Positions 8,894 through 30,604 of a DNA stretch of 33,744 nt are shown here, one piece after another. The stretch covers positions 1 through 33,744 of the forward strand of contig JAEWPH010000017.1 of assembly GCA_023460715.1 (NCBI GenBank). The letters run 5' to 3'. Position numbers and translations under genes: made by a program. This stretch comes from Pseudomonadota bacterium. Lineage in GTDB: Bacteria; Pseudomonadota; Gammaproteobacteria; Burkholderiales; Burkholderiaceae_C. Every line of letters starts with the position of its first letter. Positions within the stretch are counted from its first letter, which is position 1. The notes under the pieces are model-generated. The model was not told where the DNA came from and made no database searches. It saw only the letters and a program-made list of their open reading frames with translations.

Positions 8894-11425
8894 TCAGGCT
8901 TCGGGCGGGATCTGGCGGTCCGATACGTCCAGCAGTTCGAGCGGCACCGGGCGGCCGAAGCAGTAGCCCTGGGCGGCGGCGCAGCCCATGGCGCGCAGCC
9001 GGCGCGCCTGGGCTTCCGTCTCCACGCCCTCGGCCACCACCTGCACGCCGAAGCCTTCGGCCATGCTGAGCACGGCGGCCACGATGGCTGCGTCCTGGGG
9101 CGAGTCGAGCAGCTTGCGCACGAAGCTCTGGTCCACCTTCAGGCAGTCGAAAGGCAGCCGGCTCATATACGCCAGAGAGGCGTAGCCGGTGCCGAAGTCG
9201 TCGATGGCCACCTTGACGCCGAGCGCCCGGATGGCCGCCAGGCGCGATTGCGTCAGGGCGTCGTCTTCGATCAGCACCGATTCGGTCAGCTCCAGCGTCA
9301 GCTGCTGCGCGGGCAGCCCGCAGGCCTGGAGCAATTGCCGCAGGCGCAGCGGAAAGTCGGACTGGATCAGCTGGCGGGCCGAGACGTTGACGTGCAGCTC
9401 GAAGTCCGCGGGCAGCTGGGGCAGCCGCTGCGCGATGGCCTGCGTGGCATGGCGCAGCACCCAGTCGCCCAGCGCCAGGATGAGGTCGGACTCTTCTGCT
9501 ACGGGAATGAACACCCCGGGCGGCACCATGCCGCGGGCCGGGCTGTTCCAGCGCAGCAGGGCCTCGGCGCCGGTCACGCGGCCGGTGGCCAGGTGGATGA
9601 CGGGCTGGTAGTGCACCAGGAACTGGTGCTTCTCCAGCGCCTGCCGTAGCTCAGAGGCCAGGCGCGCCCGCTCCACCGACTGCGCCACCATGCCGGCTTC
9701 GAACACCACGCACTGGTTGCGTCCCCGGCGCTTGGCGTCGCCCAGTGCGATGCTGGCGTTGCGCAGCCAGTCGGTCAGCTCGTCGCCGCGCATCTCGCCG
9801 CTGACCACGCCGACCGAGGCATTGAGCAGCACCTCGTCGGCGCCGGCGGTGAAGGGCGTGGCGAACAGGCCCAGCACCGCCCGGCCGATGGCCTCGTCGG
9901 ACACGCCTTCCATGTCCAGGTGCAGCAGCGCGAACTCGTCGCTGCCCAGCCGGGCGATCAGCACCGGCTGGGGCATGCGTTCGCGCATGCGCTCGGCAAT
10001 GGCCTGCAGCAACCGGTCACCGGTGCCGAACCCTACGCTGTCGTTGACGGCGCGGAAGGCGTCCAGCCCGACCAGGCTGAGCGCGGCGCGGCGCGGCTCT
10101 GTCCAGGCCGCGCGCTCCAGCAGCCCGCGCCGGGTGAGCAGCTGCGTGAGCTGGTCGGTGAGCAACTGCTCCTGCAGTTGCCGGAACGAGTGCTGCAGCC
10201 GCTCGGCCATCTGGTTGAACGCCTGGATCAGCACCGAGGGCTCGCGCAACGCGCTGCGCAGCGGCAGGCCCGACTCCCATTCGCCGCGCGCCAGCCGGTT
10301 GGCGGCGTCGGTGGTGAGCTGGATGGCGCGCACCACGCGCTGCAGCACCCACAGCCCGAGCAGCAGGCCCAACAAGGCGATGCCGACGGAGGCGAAGGTG
10401 GAACGGCGCATCGACTGCCGCGTCTCGCCCAGCAGGTCCGATTCGGGCAGCAGCACCACGATGCGCCAGTCCAGGCCACGCGGGTCGCCGAAGTGCGAGA
10501 CACGGCCGTAGTAGACGGCGCCCTCCAGTGCCAGGCGGAAATCGTTCGCCTCGTCTCCGCCGGCCTCGCCCAGGTGCTGTGCGGCGGCGCGGACCTGCGG
10601 GCTGGGGCTGTCCGACGCCATCAGCCGTTCGTACTCGGCCTGCGGGCCGCGGCGGGCGCCCAGCACGGAGCCCGGCTCGGAATGGGCCACCAGCCGCCCC
10701 GCACCGTCCACCACGAAGATGTGGCCATGGCCGCGTAGCGGCTCCTGGCGCAGGAAGCGGTTGAGGCTGTCGAGCCGGACCTCGGCCTGCGCCACGCCGA
10801 TGAACACACCCTGCACGAACACGGGCGTGGTGGCCGACACGATCACGTCGCCGCGCTCTCCCACCGTGGTGTAGATGGGCGACCAGACGGATTCGCCGCG
10901 GTGCTGGGCGTGCACGTACCAGGGCCGGGCGCGCGGGTCGTAGCCGGGCACGGTGAGCGCGTCCTGCGTGGGCGTGGCGTCCTGGTAGATGCGGGTGACG
11001 TCCTGCGTATGGCGATCCTTGAGGATGAGACGAAAACGGCCTTCATCGCGCCGGATGGCCGCATAGTCGCCGTCGCGGTCGCCGAAGCCCAGCAGCCCGA
11101 TCTGCGCGCGGTCGCCGTACAGGTCGGTGAAGATGCCGCGCAGGTGCTCCTGCACGGCCTGCAGGTCGCCCGGCTGGTAGAGGCCGTGCCGCGCGATGGA
11201 GTCGGCCAGCGTGCGCTGGATCTGGAAGGGTGGCTCCAGGAACACCGCCAGCCGGTTGCGCGAGGTGGTGGTGATGGCGTCGATGAGGCGTGCGCTCTCC
11301 TGGTCGATCAACTGGTCGATCTGCCGGTGCTGCGCCAGCGTGAGCAGCGCCACCGTGGCCGCTAACACCAGCGCCACGGGCACGCCGATGGCGATGCGCA
11401 GGGGAATCTGCAGGCGGTGGCGCAT
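8894..11425 (-). CDS. Membrane sensor with HAMP, degenerate GGDEF and intact EAL (cyclic-di-GMP)
   Basis: An 843-residue signalling protein. Order: a membrane helix (residues 10-30), a periplasmic sensor of dCache type with the DPRARPWY motif and IYTTVGERGDVIVSATTPVF, a second helix near residue 340 (VGIALLGLLLGLWVLQRVV), HAMP, GGDEF, EAL. The GGDEF signature reads GSDEF (residues 494-498), so cyclase activity is doubtful. The EAL domain keeps EALLRW, NVSARQ, ELTES, IDDFGTGY, KVDQSFV and EGVET, the residues known to be needed for metal and c-di-GMP hydrolysis. The likely net activity is a ligand-controlled phosphodiesterase, perhaps with GTP binding at GGDEF. An open frame continues upstream to 11977, but that part overlaps the DUF1841 gene and lacks a matching domain, so I start at the ATG at 11425 just before the first helix. 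No strong ribosome-binding site is visible. Confidence 0.9.
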   Translation of the reverse strand: MRHRLQIPLRIAIGVPVALVLAATVALLTLAQHRQIDQLIDQESARLIDAITTTSRNRLAVFLEPPFQIQRTLADSIARHGLYQPGDLQAVQEHLRGIFTDLYGDRAQIGLLGFGDRDGDYAAIRRDEGRFRLILKDRHTQDVTRIYQDATPTQDALTVPGYDPRARPWYVHAQHRGESVWSPIYTTVGERGDVIVSATTPVFVQGVFIGVAQAEVRLDSLNRFLRQEPLRGHGHIFVVDGAGRLVAHSEPGSVLGARRGPQAEYERLMASDSPSPQVRAAAQHLGEAGGDEANDFRLALEGAVYYGRVSHFGDPRGLDWRIVVLLPESDLLGETRQSMRRSTFASVGIALLGLLLGLWVLQRVVRAIQLTTDAANRLARGEWESGLPLRSALREPSVLIQAFNQMAERLQHSFRQLQEQLLTDQLTQLLTRRGLLERAAWTEPRRAALSLVGLDAFRAVNDSVGFGTGDRLLQAIAERMRERMPQPVLIARLGSDEFALLHLDMEGVSDEAIGRAVLGLFATPFTAGADEVLLNASVGVVSGEMRGDELTDWLRNASIALGDAKRRGRNQCVVFEAGMVAQSVERARLASELRQALEKHQFLVHYQPVIHLATGRVTGAEALLRWNSPARGMVPPGVFIPVAEESDLILALGDWVLRHATQAIAQRLPQLPADFELHVNVSARQLIQSDFPLRLRQLLQACGLPAQQLTLELTESVLIEDDALTQSRLAAIRALGVKVAIDDFGTGYASLAYMSRLPFDCLKVDQSFVRKLLDSPQDAAIVAAVLSMAEGFGVQVVAEGVETEAQARRLRAMGCAAAQGYCFGRPVPLELLDVSDRQIPPEA

Positions 11426-11526: not shown

Positions 11527-11964
11527 TCAGTCGCGCGTGGCGCGGCGCTGCACGCAGGCGATGTAGGCGTCGCCGTCGGGCGGGCGCCCGGCGCGCTGGC
11601 TTTCCCAGAGCATCTGGCCCAGGCATTCCATGGCGGCGTGGTGGGCGTCCTTGAGCGAATCCAGGCGCGCGGCCAGCAGCTCGACCGCCTGGCGGATGCC
11701 GCGCGGCTGGTCGATGCTGCACTGCTCGCTGATTGACAGGTGCATCGACAGGTGCAGGAAGGGGTTGGTCTGGCCGGGCGGATCGTCGTAGTTGCGGGCC
11801 AGGGCGGCGTCGACGTCCGACAGGTCGGCGTGGTATTCGGGGTGTTCGTCGATCCAGAGGCTTGCCAGGGTTTCGATGGCCTCCATCGGCTGGCCGGCGC
11901 GGGACTTGGCATAGACGGCGCAGAAGAAGCGCCGTACGTCGGCTTGGGACGGATTGAACATCAC
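11527..11964 (-). CDS. DUF1841 family protein
   Basis: A 145-residue soluble protein matching my memory of DUF1841: an N-terminal FNPSQADVRRFFCAVYAKSR, then DEHPEYHADL and the family stretch NPFLHLSMHLSISEQCSIDQPRGIR, and a Cys-containing helix near the C-terminus (AMECLGQMLWESQRAGRPPDGDAYIACV). No function is known for the family. It lies about 100 bases upstream of the GGDEF-EAL gene on the same strand, so it may share a transcript. A second ATG immediately follows the first (MMFN), and either may be used. Confidence 0.85.
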   Translation of the reverse strand: MMFNPSQADVRRFFCAVYAKSRAGQPMEAIETLASLWIDEHPEYHADLSDVDAALARNYDDPPGQTNPFLHLSMHLSISEQCSIDQPRGIRQAVELLAARLDSLKDAHHAAMECLGQMLWESQRAGRPPDGDAYIACVQRRATRD

Positions 11965-24135: not shown

Positions 24136-24908
24136 GGCAGCCTCCGCAGCCGCCACCGTCCGGCGCGCCGGTGCAGAGCCGCCACCAGTGCGGCCAGGGT
24201 GCAGCAGGCGGCAGCCACCGCCCACTGCGGCAAGCCGGCCTTGAACGCCAGTCCCGCATAACCCAGGGCCGCCAGGCACCACAGTGCTGCACTCGTGCGC
24301 GGCAACCAGCTGTGCAGCGTGGCGGCCGGCAGGGCGACCAGGCAGGCGAGCAACAGTCCCACCATGCCGGAAGGGCGGGCCGCCCCGGCGGCGACGATGT
24401 GTGCGAGCCGGAACGATTCCACGGCGAGCGCGCCGGTGAGCCAGAAGGGGGCGTGGGCCGCCTGGGCTGCCAGCCAGACGTTCCAGGGGCGCGCTGCGCG
24501 TTGATGGCGTGGCGACGGTGCCGCGGCGTGGGGGTGCCTGCCCCGGCGTGCGGGCTGCACGCGGGCGGGGCCGATGCTCGCCGCGAGGGCTGCGCAAGCC
24601 AGGCCCAGCACGATCAATGCGCTGCCCATCGCCCAGCCGATGGGCGCGGAGAGCGCCAGGCCGCTGGCCGCCGCCAGTGCCAGCAGCACACCTGCAGCAC
24701 CCAGCGCGGTGCGCCACAGCACCGTGCCGCGCAGCAGCGCCGCGCAGGCCAGCGAGCCCAGCAGCCAGCCACCGATCAATGCCCAGGTGGCCCATGCCGG
24801 CCGCTGCGCCAGGGCGGGCCAACCCGCTGGCGGCCACAGGTGCAGCACCACAGAGGCCACCAGAGCTGCGGGCACGGTGGCGTGCAGGGCGATCCAGAAA
24901 CGCATCAT
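24132..24908 (-). CDS. Polytopic membrane protein of the iron locus, unknown function
   Basis: A 258-residue protein with about seven to eight hydrophobic segments and a basic, proline-rich loop (ARVQPARRGRHPHAAAPSPRHQRAARPW) in the middle. It overlaps the PepSY gene before it and the small membrane gene after it by ATGA, so the three are translated as a coupled set. I do not recognise the family. Its place downstream of a Fur-boxed TonB receptor suggests a role in iron or siderophore handling at the inner membrane. Confidence 0.75.
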   Translation of the reverse strand: MMRFWIALHATVPAALVASVVLHLWPPAGWPALAQRPAWATWALIGGWLLGSLACAALLRGTVLWRTALGAAGVLLALAAASGLALSAPIGWAMGSALIVLGLACAALAASIGPARVQPARRGRHPHAAAPSPRHQRAARPWNVWLAAQAAHAPFWLTGALAVESFRLAHIVAAGAARPSGMVGLLLACLVALPAATLHSWLPRTSAALWCLAALGYAGLAFKAGLPQWAVAAACCTLAALVAALHRRAGRWRLRRLP

Positions 24909-26041
24909 GGCGCGGGGGGCGCGGCGGCGGCGGCGTGGCTTTCACGCGGCCGTTGCTGGCGTCCATCGAGCCAGATCAGCGTGCCGGTGATGGACAGGAA
25001 CGCGGTTGTCAGGCCCAGAAAGAAGTACAGCCACTTGAGCGGCAGCCCGCCGAAGTCGCCGAAGTGCAGCGGCTCCATGAGCGCGTTCACCTGCGACCAG
25101 AAGCCCGCGGTGCGGGGGTCGTGCATGCGGCGTATGCGGCCGGTGGCGGCGTCGAACTCCACACTTGCCGTGCTGGCCAGGTGGCCTTCCAGCCCGCCGG
25201 TGAAGCCTGCTTCGGCCTGTGCGGTGCCCCAACGCCGCAGCGACACGTAAGCCACGTCGAAGCCCGGCACGGCTTGGCGCGCGGCGGTGTGCAAGGCGTC
25301 CAGCGACGGCATGGGCGCCGCAGACACGGGGGCCGGCTGGCCCGGACCGGCCGGCCCCGGCACAGGGGCGGTCGAACGGGCCGCCACATAGCTCCAGCCC
25401 TGCTCGAACAGCGGCGCCAGGCCCAGCCAGGCGCCCGTGACCGCGATCAGCAGGTTGAAGCCCAGCCCCCAGATGCCGGCGGATTTGTGCAGGTCGGACA
25501 TCACCACGCGAAAGCTGCGGCCCCAGCGCTGCGTGAACAGCTCGGCCAGGATCTTGCGGTGGATGACGATGCCGGTGCCGATCAGCACCAGCATCGCCAC
25601 GCCCAGGAAGCCGACGATCCAGCGCGGGCCGAAGAACAGGAAGACGTGCAGCATGCGCAGGTACTGGCCCAGCTGGCTGTCCACCGGCCCGATGACGGCG
25701 CCGGAATCGCCCCGCAGGGCGATCTTGGTGCGCTGTGCGGCGGGGGCGCCGGCTTCCCGGATGAAAGCGAAATAGGCGGGGTTGACCGTGTCCGGCAACG
25801 CCAGGGCTTCGACGGTGGCGCCGGGGTAGCGCGCCTGCAGCCGGGCAAGCACCGTGTCCAGCGGCGCGGGCGGCTGCGCGCGTGGCAGCTGCGCGAGCGA
25901 CGGGTTGGCCCACAGGTCGATCTCGTGCTTGAACACCACCACCGCGCCGGAGAAACACACGATGAACAGCAGCAGGCCCGTGACGACGCCCGCCCACGAG
26001 TGCAGCGTGAGCAGGCGGTTCAGGGTGCGCTGGCTGGGCAT
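24905..26041 (-). CDS. PepSY-associated TM helix protein
   Basis: A 378-residue inner-membrane protein of the PepSY-TM family. The N-terminal helix follows the family pattern (RTLNRLLTLHSWAGVVTGLLLFIVCFSGAVVVFKHEIDLWANP). Further helices lie at FFGPRWIVGFLGVAMLVLIGTGIVIH, SAGIWGLGFNLLIAVTGAWLGL and LKWLYFFLGLTTAFLSITGTLIWLDGR, with two periplasmic PepSY-like regions between. Relatives next to siderophore receptors are thought to reduce iron or take it from the siderophore. I start at the ATG at 26041; the frame upstream runs through the structured element at 26061-26334 and is not coding. No clear ribosome-binding site is visible. Confidence 0.85.
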   Translation of the reverse strand: MPSQRTLNRLLTLHSWAGVVTGLLLFIVCFSGAVVVFKHEIDLWANPSLAQLPRAQPPAPLDTVLARLQARYPGATVEALALPDTVNPAYFAFIREAGAPAAQRTKIALRGDSGAVIGPVDSQLGQYLRMLHVFLFFGPRWIVGFLGVAMLVLIGTGIVIHRKILAELFTQRWGRSFRVVMSDLHKSAGIWGLGFNLLIAVTGAWLGLAPLFEQGWSYVAARSTAPVPGPAGPGQPAPVSAAPMPSLDALHTAARQAVPGFDVAYVSLRRWGTAQAEAGFTGGLEGHLASTASVEFDAATGRIRRMHDPRTAGFWSQVNALMEPLHFGDFGGLPLKWLYFFLGLTTAFLSITGTLIWLDGRQQRPRESHAAAAAPPAP

Positions 26042-26060
26042 GGCATGCAGGCAGGCGAAG

Positions 26061-26334
26061 TTAGAACGTGTTGACGATCTCGCAGGGGTCGCGTTGGAGC
26101 GCAATCGGGATGAGTGGATGTCTCGGGTGCGCCGCATGGGCTCGTGCCCATGCAAGTAGCCGGGGCCTTCAATCGCCCGATTTCGCTCCAACCCGAAGGG
26201 CAGCGGTGTGGGCGGGTGGTCTGCGGCGTTGCGGCGCTTGTGGATAGCCGAGCTATCCACTGCGCACCGCGCCTTGCATCCCCTCCCGCCCACTCCGCTG
26301 CGCAACCCCTGGGAGATCGTCAACACGTTCTTAG
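26061..26334. mobile_element. MITE-like structured element with 33-base terminal inverted repeats
   Basis: The left end (26061-26093) and the inverse of the right end (26333-26301) agree at 30 of 33 bases, including AGAACGTGTTGACGATCTC without change. Inside are two long hairpin arms. Arm 1 pairs GTTGGAGCGCAATCGGG (26093-26109) with CCCGATTTCGCTCCAAC (26179-26195) and holds a perfect inner hairpin GCATGGGC-TCGT-GCCCATGC. Arm 2 pairs GCGGTGTGGGCGGG with CCCGCCCACTCCGC and holds the perfect hairpin GTGGATAG-CCGAG-CTATCCAC (26240-26260). No protein is encoded. It fills the gap between the TonB receptor and PepSY genes. I recall similar elements in Acidovorax-type genomes; mobility and copy number are unproven. 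Confidence 0.72.
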
Positions 26335-26357
26335 AGGACGCGCGAGGCGCCCGGGGC

Positions 26358-28529
26358 TCAGAAGAAGTAGGTCAATCCGATGCTGAAGTTGCGCGGCAGG
26401 GACGGCGACACCACGTTGGCGTTGATCGCTCCGTCGTAGTACGCCTTGTCGAACACGTTCTTCACACCCGCCGTGATACGGTAGCTGGGGCCGGCATAGC
26501 TTACCGACAGGTCGACCACCGTATACGAGGGCAGGGTGAACGGGTACGAGCCGACCTGCTCACTTACGTAGCGCGCACCGGCGCCCAGCGTGAGCTGCGG
26601 CATCTGCGGCAGCTTGTAGGTGGCCCACAGCGATAGGGTGTGGCGGGGCGTCAGGTTCAGCGGCAGCCCGACGATAGCGGTGTTGGTGTCGCGTGTGACT
26701 TCGGTGTCGGTATAGGTGTAGGCGCCCGTCAGCTTGAGGTTGTTGCGCAGATCGGCGCCCATTTCCAGTTCCAGCCCGCGCGAGCGCTGCTCGCCGGTCT
26801 GCACGCTGAAGCCGGTGTTCACCGGGTCGGCCGTGCTGACGTTCTTGCGGCGCAGGTCGAACAGGGCCAGCGAGCCGGTCCAGTGGCCGCCCGGCGCCTC
26901 GTACTTGATGCCGGCCTCCCATTGCTTGCCGGTTTCGGGCGCGAAGGGCGAGCCGTTGAAGTCCAGTCCGGTGACGGGCAGGAACGATTCCGCGTAGCTC
27001 CCGTATGCCGCCCAGCCCGGCTTGAACTCATGCACCAGCCCCGCGGACAGCACCGTGGCGGCGTCCTTCTGGCGCAACTGCACGTTGGTCAGCCGGTTTT
27101 CGGTGTCGTTGGTGGACCAGTCGCGCCGCACGCCCACCAGGGCGGTCCACTGCGGGTGGAACTTGATCTGGTCCTGCGCGTACAGGCCCAGCACGGTCAG
27201 CTTGCTGGGCGCGTCCACGCTCAGCGCGGTGGGGCAGGTGGCCGGCATGCCGTAGACCGGGTTGAACAGGTCGAGCGCGCCGATGCGGCAGCTGCGGCTG
27301 GCCTGGCTGCTGTGGCCGGTGCGGGCGTCCAGGCCGGTCACCAGCCGGTGCTGCGCACCCATCGTCGTAAAGGTGGAGAGCAGTGAGGTGTCGGTGGCCA
27401 GGATGTCGAAGTCCAGGTACTGACGGGTCGCGCTGCGGTTCTGCAGCCGGCGGTTGGCCTGCAATGCCTGGTTGGCGACGAAGTTGCCGGTGCCTTCCTC
27501 GGTCTCGTAGCGCACGTTCTGCCGCAGCGTGAGCGCAGGGGAGAAGCGGTGCTCCAGCGCGTAGCCGACCGAGGTGCTCTCCACGTCGTAGCCGCCAAAG
27601 CCCGGGTCGGCGGTCAGCAGCGAGCGGCGCAGCGTGCCGTTGGGGTTGGGCAGCACCGTGCCGTAGGGCGAGATGCCCTGCTGGCGCAGCCAGTTGCTCT
27701 TGGTGTAGGTGGCGAAAAGCACCAGATCGGTCTGTGCGCCCAGGTCCAGCGACAGCGAAGGCGCGATCCAGCGGTCGCGCCGGTAGACGAAGTCCGTCGG
27801 GTCGTCGCTGTTGGACACCTGTGCGTTGATGCGCAGCGCCGCCTTGCCGGATTCGTTCAATGGACGGTTCATGTCGGCCTGTACGGTGCGCTCGCCGAAG
27901 CTGCCGACCGAGACGCCGACCTCGCTCAGCGCATCGCGCTTGGGCCGCTTGCTGATGGCGTTCACGATGCCGCCTGGCTGCACCTGGCCGTACATCACCG
28001 ACGCCGCGCCCTTGAGCACCTCGAAGCGCTCGTAGCCGTAGGGGACCACGCGCGTCCACATGCCGGGGCTTTGCACCAGGCCGTCGATCAGGATCGATTC
28101 AGTGGAGCGGAAGCCGCGGATGTTCAGGTCGTCGAACCCGCGCCGCCCGAAGTTGACAGGGCTCACGCCGGCCACCGTCTGCAGGGCCTGCTGCAGGTTG
28201 TTGATCTGGCGCGACTCCATCTGCTCGCGCGTCACCACGCTGACGGACTGCGGCGTCTCCAGCCGGCGCATCGGGGCCTTGCCCGCCGTTTGCGCCTCGA
28301 TCGGTGCGAAGCCCACATCCTTTTCGGTGCTGGCGTTGATGCGCACTTCCTGCATGACGGCTGCGGTCTCGGGCGTGGCCTGCGCGAAGGCGGCGTGGGA
28401 CAGGTACAGCGCCAGCGGGCTCAAAGCCCAGAAGGAGGGCAGGCCGCGAACCCGGCGTGGAGACGCCGTTCGGCGGGAGGGGACAGGGCGGAAGGCCTGC
28501 CCGGCAGGGAAGTGCTTTGGGTGGTTCAT
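26358..28529 (-). CDS. TonB-dependent siderophore receptor
   Basis: A 723-residue outer-membrane receptor. An export signal ends near SHAAFAQ; there is a TonB-box-like VMQEVRINAS, then a plug domain with ETPQSVSVVTREQMESRQINNLQQALQTVAGV, LNIRGFRSTESILIDGL and GYERFEVLKGAASVMYGQVQPGGIVNAISKRP. A 22-strand-type barrel follows and ends in GLTYFF with the usual terminal Phe. One outer loop holds a cysteine pair (SCRIGALDLFNPVYGMPATC). Such receptors import ferric siderophores using TonB energy. A Fur box lies about 80 bases upstream. PepSY and two membrane genes follow, after the structured element. No siderophore biosynthesis gene is present, so use of a foreign siderophore is possible. Confidence 0.93.
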   Translation of the reverse strand: MNHPKHFPAGQAFRPVPSRRTASPRRVRGLPSFWALSPLALYLSHAAFAQATPETAAVMQEVRINASTEKDVGFAPIEAQTAGKAPMRRLETPQSVSVVTREQMESRQINNLQQALQTVAGVSPVNFGRRGFDDLNIRGFRSTESILIDGLVQSPGMWTRVVPYGYERFEVLKGAASVMYGQVQPGGIVNAISKRPKRDALSEVGVSVGSFGERTVQADMNRPLNESGKAALRINAQVSNSDDPTDFVYRRDRWIAPSLSLDLGAQTDLVLFATYTKSNWLRQQGISPYGTVLPNPNGTLRRSLLTADPGFGGYDVESTSVGYALEHRFSPALTLRQNVRYETEEGTGNFVANQALQANRRLQNRSATRQYLDFDILATDTSLLSTFTTMGAQHRLVTGLDARTGHSSQASRSCRIGALDLFNPVYGMPATCPTALSVDAPSKLTVLGLYAQDQIKFHPQWTALVGVRRDWSTNDTENRLTNVQLRQKDAATVLSAGLVHEFKPGWAAYGSYAESFLPVTGLDFNGSPFAPETGKQWEAGIKYEAPGGHWTGSLALFDLRRKNVSTADPVNTGFSVQTGEQRSRGLELEMGADLRNNLKLTGAYTYTDTEVTRDTNTAIVGLPLNLTPRHTLSLWATYKLPQMPQLTLGAGARYVSEQVGSYPFTLPSYTVVDLSVSYAGPSYRITAGVKNVFDKAYYDGAINANVVSPSLPRNFSIGLTYFF

Positions 28530-28603
28530 GGACGGCGTTTCAGACGAAAGCGCCGCCCCTGCCCGCGGAGGACAGTCAGGTGGAAGAACGCGGCGCGGCC
28601 GGT

Positions 28604-28632
28604 ATTGTATTGAGAATCATTATTATTCAATG
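28604..28632 (-). promoter_or_regulatory. Fur box and promoter region of the siderophore receptor
   Basis: The 15-mer TGAGAATCATTATTA (plus strand, 28611-28625) matches the Fur 7-1-7 model (TGATAAT-N-ATTATCA) at 12 of 14 positions. A TACAAT -10-like hexamer for the minus strand lies at 28609-28604, next to the box, so Fur binding would block the promoter when iron is plentiful. The AT-rich block stands out in a GC-rich region. Confidence 0.85.
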
Positions 28633-28677
28633 TTGTTTTTTGGTGAGCCGCAGACGCGTGAGGTTCGGCCCTCGCCG

Positions 28678-28696
28678 CAGCGCCAGCCGGGCGCTG
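28678..28696 (-). terminator. Hairpin after the Kef gene, possible terminator
   Basis: On the minus strand, CAGCGCC-CGGCT-GGCGCTG forms a 7-base stem right after the antiporter stop. No direct T-run follows; a stretch of T/A-rich DNA comes about 40 bases later. It may slow transcription before the receptor promoter. Confidence 0.35.
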
Positions 28697-28699
28697 CAC

Positions 28700-30604
28700 C
28701 TACTCTTGGCCTGGACTGCGACCTCGCGTTGCGCCGTCCAGCGGCGTGGCGCCGGGGCCTGTGAGCCCGGCCTCCGTCGCAGCGTGTTCCTGCCGTTCCT
28801 TGGCCATCTGCTCCACCAGTTGCTGGCGGCCTTGCTTGGCCACGGCGATCATCTTCTCGCGGTTCTGGTGGTGCGGGTACATCAGGTCGGCCAGGGCGAT
28901 GTTGTGGTGGCGGAAGCGGTCGGCCAGCGCCTCGGCCTGTTCGCCGGGCATGCCCATCACCTCCAGCACGGCGCGGGCGGTCTTCAGGCTGGATTCGAAC
29001 ACCTCGCGCTCCACGCGCGTCACGCCCAGGTCGCGCAGGGCATTCCAGTGCGTCACGTCCCGTGCGCGCGCGACGATCTCCAGCTGCGGAAAATGCTTGC
29101 GCGCGATCTTCACGATCTTCAGCGACTGCTCGGTGTCGTCCACGGCCACGACCAGCACGCGCGCCTGGTCGGCCCCGGCGATGCGCAGCAGGTCCAGCCG
29201 GGTGGCGTCGCCGTAGAACACGCGGTAGCCGAAGGTGTGCGCCACCTCCAGCATTTCCACGCTGTGGTCCAGCACCGTGGCGGGCACGCCCTGGGCGAGC
29301 ATCATGCGCGCCACGATCTGCCCGTAGCGGCCGAAGCCGGCGATGATGACCGGCGCCTGCTGGGGCTCGGACAGGGCGTGTGCCTGCGCGGCCTCGGGCG
29401 GCTGCGCATCCGTCTTGAGCTGGGCGTAGCGCGGCAGCAGCACGCGGTCCATGGCCACCAGCAGCAAGGGCGACAGCAGCATCGACAGCGCCACCGCGCC
29501 GATCAGCAGCGAGGCCGTTTCGTTGGGAATGGCGCCGGCGCTTGCGCCGCTCTGGAACACGACGAAGGCGAATTCGCCGCCCTGCGCCAGCAGCAGCGTG
29601 AACACCGGGCGCTCCTGGTAGGGCATGCGCGTGATGCGCGCCAGCGCATAGATCACCCCGGCCTTCACGGCCAGGAAGCCTGCCAGCAGCGCCAGCATGG
29701 TCCACGGCGAGGCCATGAGCACCCCGAAGTCGATGCTCATGCCCACGGCAATGAAGAACAGGCCGAGCAGCAGGCCCTTGAACGGCTCGATGTCGGTCTC
29801 CAGCTCGCGCCGGTACTCGCTGTCGGCCAGCAGCACGCCGGCGAGGAAGGCGCCCAGCGCCATCGACAGGCCCACGCTCAGCATCAGCATGGCGATGCCG
29901 ACGACGAGGAACAGCGAGGCGGCCGTGAAGATCTCGGGCGTGTTGCTCTTGGCGATCCAGCGCAGCAGCGGGCGCAGCGCCCAGCGCCCGCCCAGCACGA
30001 TGGCGGCGATCATGCCGATGACCTTGGCTGCCTCCAGCGCGATCTCTGCCGGCGTGTGGTGCGGTGCACTGGCGCCCAGGGCTGCGGCGCCCAGCAGCGG
30101 CAGTAGCGCCAGGATGGGAATCGCCGCCACGTCCTGGAACAGCAGGATGGAAAACGCCTTCTGTCCGCTGTCGGTGCGCATCAGATTGCGCTCGTCGATG
30201 GATTGCAGCGCGATGGCGGTGGACGACAGCGCCAGCCCCAGCGCGCCCACCAAGCCCACGTTCCAGGGCAGGCCGCAGGCCCACGCGGCGGCCCACAGCA
30301 CGGAGGCGCAGCCCAGTACCTGCGCGCTGCCCAGGCCGAAGATCGGCCGCCGCAGGCTCCACAGACGGCTGGGCTGCAGCTCCAGCCCGACCAGGAACAG
30401 CATCAGCACCACGCCGAACTCGGCGAAGTGCAGGATGTCCTGCACATTGCTCACCAGCCCCAGCCCCCAGGGGCCGATGGCGATGCCTGCCGCCAGGTAG
30501 CCGATGATGGCGCCCAGCCCCAGCGCGCGGGCGATGGGCACGGCGATCACGGCGGCCGCGAGGTAGGTGAATCCGTAGGTGAGCCAGGTGGGGGCGTGGG
30601 CCAT
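28700..30604 (-). CDS. Kef-type monovalent cation:proton antiporter (CPA2)
   Basis: A 634-residue inner-membrane antiporter. About 12 hydrophobic helices occupy residues 1-390, including GAIIGYLAAGIAIGPWGLGL, the EFGVVLMLFLVGLEL helix and the ion-site helix SILLFQDVAAIPIL with its conserved Asp. A cytoplasmic RCK/TrkA-N domain follows from about residue 415 (PVIIAGFGRYGQIVARMM, then VLDHSVEMLE and VFYGDATRLDLLRIAGA). The tail is charged (QQLVEQMAKERQEHAATEAG). Layout and length fit KefB/KefC potassium/proton antiporters, which protect against electrophiles through glutathione adducts. No KefF/KefG ancillary gene is nearby. The ribosome-binding site is weak at the ATG at 30604. Confidence 0.9.
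   Translation of the reverse strand: MAHAPTWLTYGFTYLAAAVIAVPIARALGLGAIIGYLAAGIAIGPWGLGLVSNVQDILHFAEFGVVLMLFLVGLELQPSRLWSLRRPIFGLGSAQVLGCASVLWAAAWACGLPWNVGLVGALGLALSSTAIALQSIDERNLMRTDSGQKAFSILLFQDVAAIPILALLPLLGAAALGASAPHHTPAEIALEAAKVIGMIAAIVLGGRWALRPLLRWIAKSNTPEIFTAASLFLVVGIAMLMLSVGLSMALGAFLAGVLLADSEYRRELETDIEPFKGLLLGLFFIAVGMSIDFGVLMASPWTMLALLAGFLAVKAGVIYALARITRMPYQERPVFTLLLAQGGEFAFVVFQSGASAGAIPNETASLLIGAVALSMLLSPLLLVAMDRVLLPRYAQLKTDAQPPEAAQAHALSEPQQAPVIIAGFGRYGQIVARMMLAQGVPATVLDHSVEMLEVAHTFGYRVFYGDATRLDLLRIAGADQARVLVVAVDDTEQSLKIVKIARKHFPQLEIVARARDVTHWNALRDLGVTRVEREVFESSLKTARAVLEVMGMPGEQAEALADRFRHHNIALADLMYPHHQNREKMIAVAKQGRQQLVEQMAKERQEHAATEAGLTGPGATPLDGATRGRSPGQE

Follow-up and report, generated by a model that had tools for sequence, protein, structure and literature searches.

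A probable non-autonomous IS5-family MITE with a conserved, structured interior, inserted between TonB-dependent receptor and PepSY genes

A mobile element of 267 bp, found at positions 26064-26330 of a 33,744-nucleotide stretch of DNA (hereafter the window, that is, the whole stretch analysed), is very probably a non-autonomous IS5-family MITE that has entered a TTA target lying between the genes for a TonB-dependent receptor and a PepSY-associated membrane protein, and that carries an interior shared with other elements. It belongs to a repeat family with terminal inverted repeats (TIRs), TNA target duplications and empty sites, and IS5-family elements with equal TIRs occur in the genus. As judged from sequence comparison, its interior is common to elements of Beta- and Gammaproteobacteria whose TIRs have strongly diverged, most of these elements being about 268 bp long. 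No earlier description of the element, or of a shared MITE interior, was found in the open-access literature searched.

Structure of the element

The features of the window are given below, with the strand where one applies.

24905-26041, minus strand: gene for a PepSY-associated membrane protein (PepSY_TM; PF03929, E 2.2e-58), its start placed at an ATG conserved among relatives
26061-26063: left target-site duplication (TSD), TTA, present on both sides of the element
26064-26093, plus strand: left TIR, GAACGTGTTGACGATCTC..., matching the right end at 28 of 30 bases, with outer ends as on an IS5-family insertion sequence
26093-26192, plus strand: arm 1, a long imperfect hairpin with a perfect apical hairpin at 26134-26153 (from the fold and the copy consensus)
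26192-26200, plus strand: central mini-hairpin CCC-GAA-GGG, between the arms
26200-26302, plus strand: arm 2, a long imperfect hairpin with a perfect apical hairpin at 26240-26260 (from the fold and the copy consensus)
26222-26278, plus strand: conserved core TGCGGCGTTGC-N36-GCGCCTTGCA, within arm 2, a pattern also found in other genomes
26301-26330, minus strand: right TIR, 30 bp, partner of the left TIR
26331-26333: right target-site duplication, TTA, a direct repeat of the left one
26358-28529, minus strand: TonB-dependent receptor gene (PF00593 and PF07715)
28609-28627, plus strand: candidate Fur-box-like site upstream of the receptor gene, with 3 mismatches in 18 specified bases

The original prediction, made from the sequence of the window, put the terminal repeats at 30 matches in 33 bases, which agrees with 28 of 30 over the 30-bp TIRs plus the flanking TTA on each side. 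It also described two long arms, each with a perfect inner hairpin, and both inner hairpins are indeed perfect (GCATGGGC/GCCCATGC in arm 1 and GTGGATAGC/GCTATCCAC in arm 2). Folded as DNA, positions 26040-26360 reach -116.2 kcal/mol against a mean of -71.97 for shuffled sequences (z -11.4), and none of 100 shuffles folds as well. The predicted shape, a TIR stem with two arms, is that of the three-way junction first proposed; however, when 28 copies are combined into a consensus, the CCC-GAA-GGG sequence between the arms gains a stem of two pairs, and given this central stem, four-way junction may be the better name for the modelled fold.

It is assumed, on the basis of length, structure and base-pair changes, that the element codes for no protein. 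AT-richness is a typical feature of MITEs rather than a defining one. The element does not display it, having a GC content of 65.9% against 69.5% for the window, whereas MITEs are usually described as AT-rich (excerpts of PMC10969869).

Copies, target duplications and empty sites

The nearest compared genome, G001 (4.6 Mb in one contig), contains at least 36 near-full-length copies of the element with 82-94% identity, and partial copies besides; this is a lower bound, as 40 of 100 candidates were scored. Matches at E <= 0.001, some of them weak and partial, are found in 17 of 100 relatives (G001 included), and the TIR pattern occurs in 12 of the 100, with no control matches. The ends found with this pattern number 120 in G005, 80 in G015, 68 in G001 and 37 in G011. 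Among the matches listed in a scan of named records, the pattern is also present in Paracidovorax wautersii, P. anthurii, P. konjaci, Acidovorax radicis, Simplicispira hankyongi and Rhodoferax sp. OV413. Phage records gave no match to the element. A comparison of window positions 25800-26600 with Rfam by E-value returned just four weak miRNA matches, far below the gathering score, and 20 related loci returned one tRNA alone at the gathering score.

Among the pooled loci, 188 TIR pairs lie 30-1000 bp apart; 132 of them span 200-300 bp, and 112 of these measure 264-269 bp. Identical 3-bp flanks, all of the form TNA, border 103 of the 132 copies of 200-300 bp (TAA 38, TTA 37, TGA 18 and TCA 10). 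The element is absent from five orthologous receptor/PepSY loci, where the short intergenic stretches are too diverged for a base-exact site, and a sixth locus aligns in part. A near-exact empty site is provided by the comparison of locus L048 with L319, the flanks of which are 96-97% identical. Multiple copies with conserved ends, duplicated targets and empty sites thus bear out the initial view of a mobile, MITE-like repeat family.

Two further sets of elements were observed. A viral contig (L374) carries two elements of 139-140 bp, at 10258-10397 and 11588-11726 and thus about 1.2 kb apart, which have IS5-like TIRs and TTA duplications. In another genus, a related family of 264 bp (G244; loci L173, L175 and L177) keeps the arms and the mini-hairpin, with stems that are A/T-richer and different in their letters.

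Candidate mover and products of loss

Judging from the ends that they share with the element, IS5-family insertion sequences of 846-849 bp are its likely movers. TIR pairs at this spacing, with ends as on the element, are found in G006, G337, G269 and G012 (L205), and the elements that they enclose each have two ORFs matching IS5 transposase models. At locus L176 the second ORF passes the IS5 model NF033580 (147.6, cut-off 110) and PF01609, while the first is below the NF033580 cut-off (80.4) but passes PF13340. Pairs of insertion-sequence size (843-849 bp) number 17, with matching 3-bp flanks in ten; counting against this, the complete insertion sequences of G006 have matching 3-bp flanks in one of four cases and unequal flanks in three. 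A transposase is found at E <= 1e-40 in 9 of 17 genomes of the genus. None at this threshold is present in G001, which is rich in copies, and this weakens the case for current mobility there.

The TIR variants GAACGTG, GAGCCTG and CAAAGTC are found on both MITEs and insertion sequences, and insertion-sequence counterparts exist for MITE ends of the GAACGTGTTNACGATC, GAGCCTGTTNACGATC and ...CAAAGTC kinds. For the ...CAATGTC form (L037), no counterpart was seen among the loci compared, and a weak check by eye of the matches listed gave no pair of insertion-sequence size for the AGTGTANTGC-type ends of G783 and four other genomes. On plasmids, those relatives of the transposase that are annotated, among the matches listed, are named IS5 family transposase. 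The marks of an IS5-family MITE of the TNA-target group, a 3-bp TNA duplication and an IS5 transposase partner, were both found; IS427-like is presumably the name of this subgroup. An IS5-family transposase would move the element in trans.

Shortened forms of the element also occur. Ten derivatives of 39-40 bp keep just the folded TIR stem (40 bp: L082, L105, L146, L249, L267, L300, L307 and L351; 39 bp: L252 and L343), with matching flanks in five of the eight 40-bp cases and one of the two of 39 bp, and by eye their deletion joints fall at short, CGATC-like direct repeats. Five TIR remnants of 16 bases (L139 near 2701, L140 near 7264, L145 near 2327, L053 near 1711 and L036 at 2841-2856) adjoin apparent gene ends, again by eye, and four of the five have equal TNA flanks. 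The exact pattern of one remnant form has three matches among 60 genomes, all in G001, of which two are remnants and the third forms one end of the full copy L012. The 16-base remnants would represent near-precise excision by slippage between short repeats, and loss by slippage would leave both these and the 39-40 bp stems.

A conserved interior between diverged ends

The core, TGCGGCGTTGC-hairpin-GCGCCTTGCA, has letters at least 90% conserved in 28 members of the family although their stems differ; these members were gathered by whole-element or TIR similarity, independently of the core. Weak matches outside the family are elements of similar shape with other TIRs. The core pattern TGCGGCGTTGC-N28-44-GCGCCTTGCA is present in 41 of 399 Burkholderiales genomes, representing 25 of 158 genera, with two control matches in all. 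In the class, Gammaproteobacteria, it is found in 13 of 274 genomes (11 of 222 genera), with no control matches. Of these 13, 11 belong to nine families outside the order, which 271 of the genomes represent.

As the core letters of most of these wider members are fixed by the search, the independent evidence comes from element lengths, the second arm and the mini-hairpin. An enclosing TIR, sought within a span of 150-300 bp, was found for 49 of 69 core rows: 37 measure 249-280 bp, seven are one-arm forms of 160-171 bp and five lie between. The other 20 rows have no enclosing TIR within that span, two of them having TIRs at the wider spacings of 388 and 392 bp. The second arm of the 37 long members contains the core in inverted form, matching at 14-20 of 21 letters against 6-15 in shuffled sequence; with one shuffle each, the score exceeds that of the member's own shuffle in 36 cases and equals it in one. 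The motif CCC-N3-4-GGG is present in 24 of the 50 upstream stretches left after thinning, against 2.4 expected, and in every one of these 24 it stands 20-21 nt upstream of the core. Despite differing letters, the apical insert forms 10.4 Watson-Crick pairs within itself, compared with 7.1 in shuffled sequence (43 thinned inserts, one shuffle each).

Different ends enclose this interior even within one genome, G001 having three end types (GAACGTGTT...; GGGCCTGTTAACGC..., at L460, 266 bp; and GGAACCTCTGCACGAATC, at L474, 160 bp). A plasmid of Comamonas odontotermitis carries an element of 268 bp with ends as here, one of Azotobacter chroococcum an element of 271 bp with other ends, flanked by CTAG, and one of Halomonas sp. 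PA16-9 an element of 267 bp, while one-arm forms are found on plasmids of Cupriavidus basilensis (170 bp) and Diaphorobacter sp. HDW4A (167 bp). No annotated feature lies beneath these plasmid matches, in a gene table that is incomplete (the Halomonas record is almost unannotated).

The TIRs of such elements are not wholly unrelated. When 28 TIRs, chosen by hand to represent each type roughly once and drawn from the window and the core-search rows, were linked at 0.55 identity, 22 joined in one chain, with one group of four and two singles. Gradual divergence of the TIRs is therefore as good a reading as their swapping.

Placement relative to genes

Neighbouring genes, called by our own codon score rather than by a gene finder, could be assigned for 105 of the 132 copies, the 27 dropped having short flanks (14) or no called genes (13). 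The neighbours are co-directional in 60 cases, convergent in 28 and divergent in 17, and two copies were flagged as intragenic. In raw counts, the element has a gene 3' end no more than 20 bp away in 58 of 114 cases and a gene 5' end in 11 of 92; in 39 of the 114 the stop codon is no more than 3 nt from the element, which places it in or next to the duplicated target. Because TNA targets include two stop codons, placement at gene 3' ends fits tolerance and not a regulatory role, and these insertions look passively tolerated. Copies would survive mainly just behind genes, where, with TAA and TGA among the targets, little is lost.

Covariation and strand symmetry

An alignment of 28 diverse members, from 31 listed, was used to examine the stems (L086, L269 and L347 were omitted for doubtful bounds or length, and L034 was trimmed). 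Double changes are seen at 66 of 93 consensus pairs, and so, with the many copies in G001, the element is neither unique nor without covarying stems. The original prediction took such compensatory changes as a sign of selection on RNA shape. Selection on a host transcript would be expected to give more G-U than A-C on the transcribed strand, together with an orientation bias. However, the 57 copies between co-directional genes are oriented 29:28, and their transcribed strands have 124 G-U and 122 A-C departures (TIR stem 29:20, arm 1 71:75 and arm 2 24:27). Thus the compensatory changes are present, but they are symmetric toward host transcription and give no support to selection on host RNA shape; their source could be selection acting on the DNA itself or the correction of palindromes by template switching.

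Counts taken in the element's own orientation are unequal. Over 128 related rows, G-U and A-C number 253:76 in arm 1, 76:47 in arm 2 and 43:54 in the TIR stem, and in 52 thinned elements they total 102 and 51. On the core strand, A-C exceeds G-T by 53 to 23 in 71 thinned arms and by 9 to 2 in 43 thinned apical parts. As the rows are related and the numbers of distinct pair types at each position barely differ (27:24, 27:27 and 19:17), inheritance explains much of this inequality. Even so, folding may matter on just one strand in each arm, which counts against a strand-neutral DNA role. A comparison of strand energies, in which the complement was the more stable in 33 of 39 thinned arms, was discarded because it depends on the fixed core letters.

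What maintains the interior

It is tentatively suggested that the interior has been retained for its DNA hairpins, the target of a host or element-borne factor that aids spread or persistence, and not as an RNA switch of the host operon; the conserved hairpins would most likely serve the element at the DNA level. A bolder proposal, which we consider rather unlikely, is that the interior is itself a mobile, structured DNA parasite that changes ends between IS5-type transposases, its core hairpin being recognised, single-stranded or as a cruciform, by such a factor of host or element origin. This passage between ends would extend over Beta- and Gammaproteobacterial evolution.

There is an appreciable chance that the compensatory changes arose without selection, template switching during replication correcting imperfect palindromes such that both sides of a stem change together. 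By eye, most double changes replace one complete Watson-Crick pair by another, and one-sided states are few; departures are equal relative to transcription, and the stem derivatives and 16-bp remnants suggest slippage across palindromes. Correction alone should nevertheless erase asymmetry, whereas the letters of the core, of which several are unpaired or mispaired, are conserved in the 28 members that were not selected by core, and the mini-hairpin keeps its position.

It is unlikely that this is an ordinary MITE lineage, the interior of which looks conserved merely through recent horizontal transfer between species. The patchy distribution of the core over the genomes of the order and the class is in keeping with such transfer, as is its presence on plasmids of Comamonas, Cupriavidus, Diaphorobacter, Azotobacter and Halomonas, but after a recent spread the ends should be as well preserved as the interior, and the TIRs, outer stems and apical hairpins differ between members far more than the core does.

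Least probable, and in our view improbable, is the regulatory role first envisaged, in which an RNA structure in the receptor-PepSY transcript sets the ratio of the two genes' expression by termination, processing or stability: the very stable fold, the double changes, internal letters conserved among variable paired helices, the unequal counts in the element's own orientation, the location at gene 3' ends and the RNase III cleavage proposed for neisserial MITE transcripts (in excerpts of PMC2229807) would all suit it, but co-directional copies have neither orientation bias nor G-U excess, five relatives have no element at the locus, and a scan of 25900-28900 for an intrinsic terminator (a GC stem, then a T run) found none, with 1.9 expected in shuffles. 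Control by termination was therefore not borne out, and the 57 co-directional copies leave control by processing or stability unsupported. Recognition of the hairpins as DNA is the reading tentatively favoured here.

The receptor/PepSY locus

As was noted at the outset, the element separates a siderophore receptor gene from its PepSY partner: it lies between the stop of the TonB-dependent receptor gene at 26358 and the start of the PepSY_TM gene at 26041, both on the minus strand. Fur control of this operon, also proposed, is possible. One consensus form gives the candidate site upstream of the receptor gene, and 100 shuffles contain no match as good, whereas a second consensus form gives no match. 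The locus seems variable between near relatives, since 63% of sampled 31-mers are common to the window and G001 but the PepSY stretch 25700-26060 has just a weak 53-base match there. The element is most likely a passenger at this locus, with at most a modest effect; an influence on receptor/PepSY expression is possible.

The PepSY reading frame is open across the element as far as a GTG in the TIR (24905-26326), which would add 95 codons. This is probably due to chance, and gene finders may misplace the PepSY start because of it.

Comparison with known elements

REP/BIME sequences and REPIN doublets are paired, inverted, imperfect hairpins that exist in many copies and are moved by RAYT transposases; the present doublet differs in lying between IS5-type TIRs with TSDs. 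Closer in its ends is MITEPsy1 of Pseudomonas syringae, which excerpts of its source give as 100 nt long, with 18-nt TIRs and a 4 bp duplication of CTAG or YTAA (PMC3189936). Like the present element, it is non-coding, has TIRs resembling those of an IS5-family element (it is marked 'IS5?') and a short target duplication, and movement in trans is inferred for both. By that description, the present element differs in its 267 bp, its two arms and mini-hairpin, its TNA target and an interior common to elements with other TIRs.

The CIR repeats of Caulobacter and its relatives, according to excerpts of PMC2229807, are about 110 bp long with GANTC at the loop, and are only partly MITE-like. They too consist of a pair of long inverted-repeat arms with a linker between them, are intergenic and are conserved across genera. 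The present element, in contrast, has clear TIRs and TSDs, and the GANTC motif is absent from its 267 bp. In the same excerpts, Correia/NEMIS and RUP elements have TA dinucleotide ends and lengths of about 107-155 bp, RUP being tied to IS630-Spn1 (PMC2229807). These are likewise small, multicopy elements with TIRs and structured transcripts, but their stem is formed by the two ends, whereas the present element has two arms.

Implications

Since the interior stays recognisable across many families while the ends have diverged, the part that endures may be the interior. An ordinary MITE shows the reverse pattern: nothing but its ends is of consequence to the transposase, and the sequence between them drifts. 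The old question of why some MITEs succeed thereby becomes testable, in the form of what binds the core.
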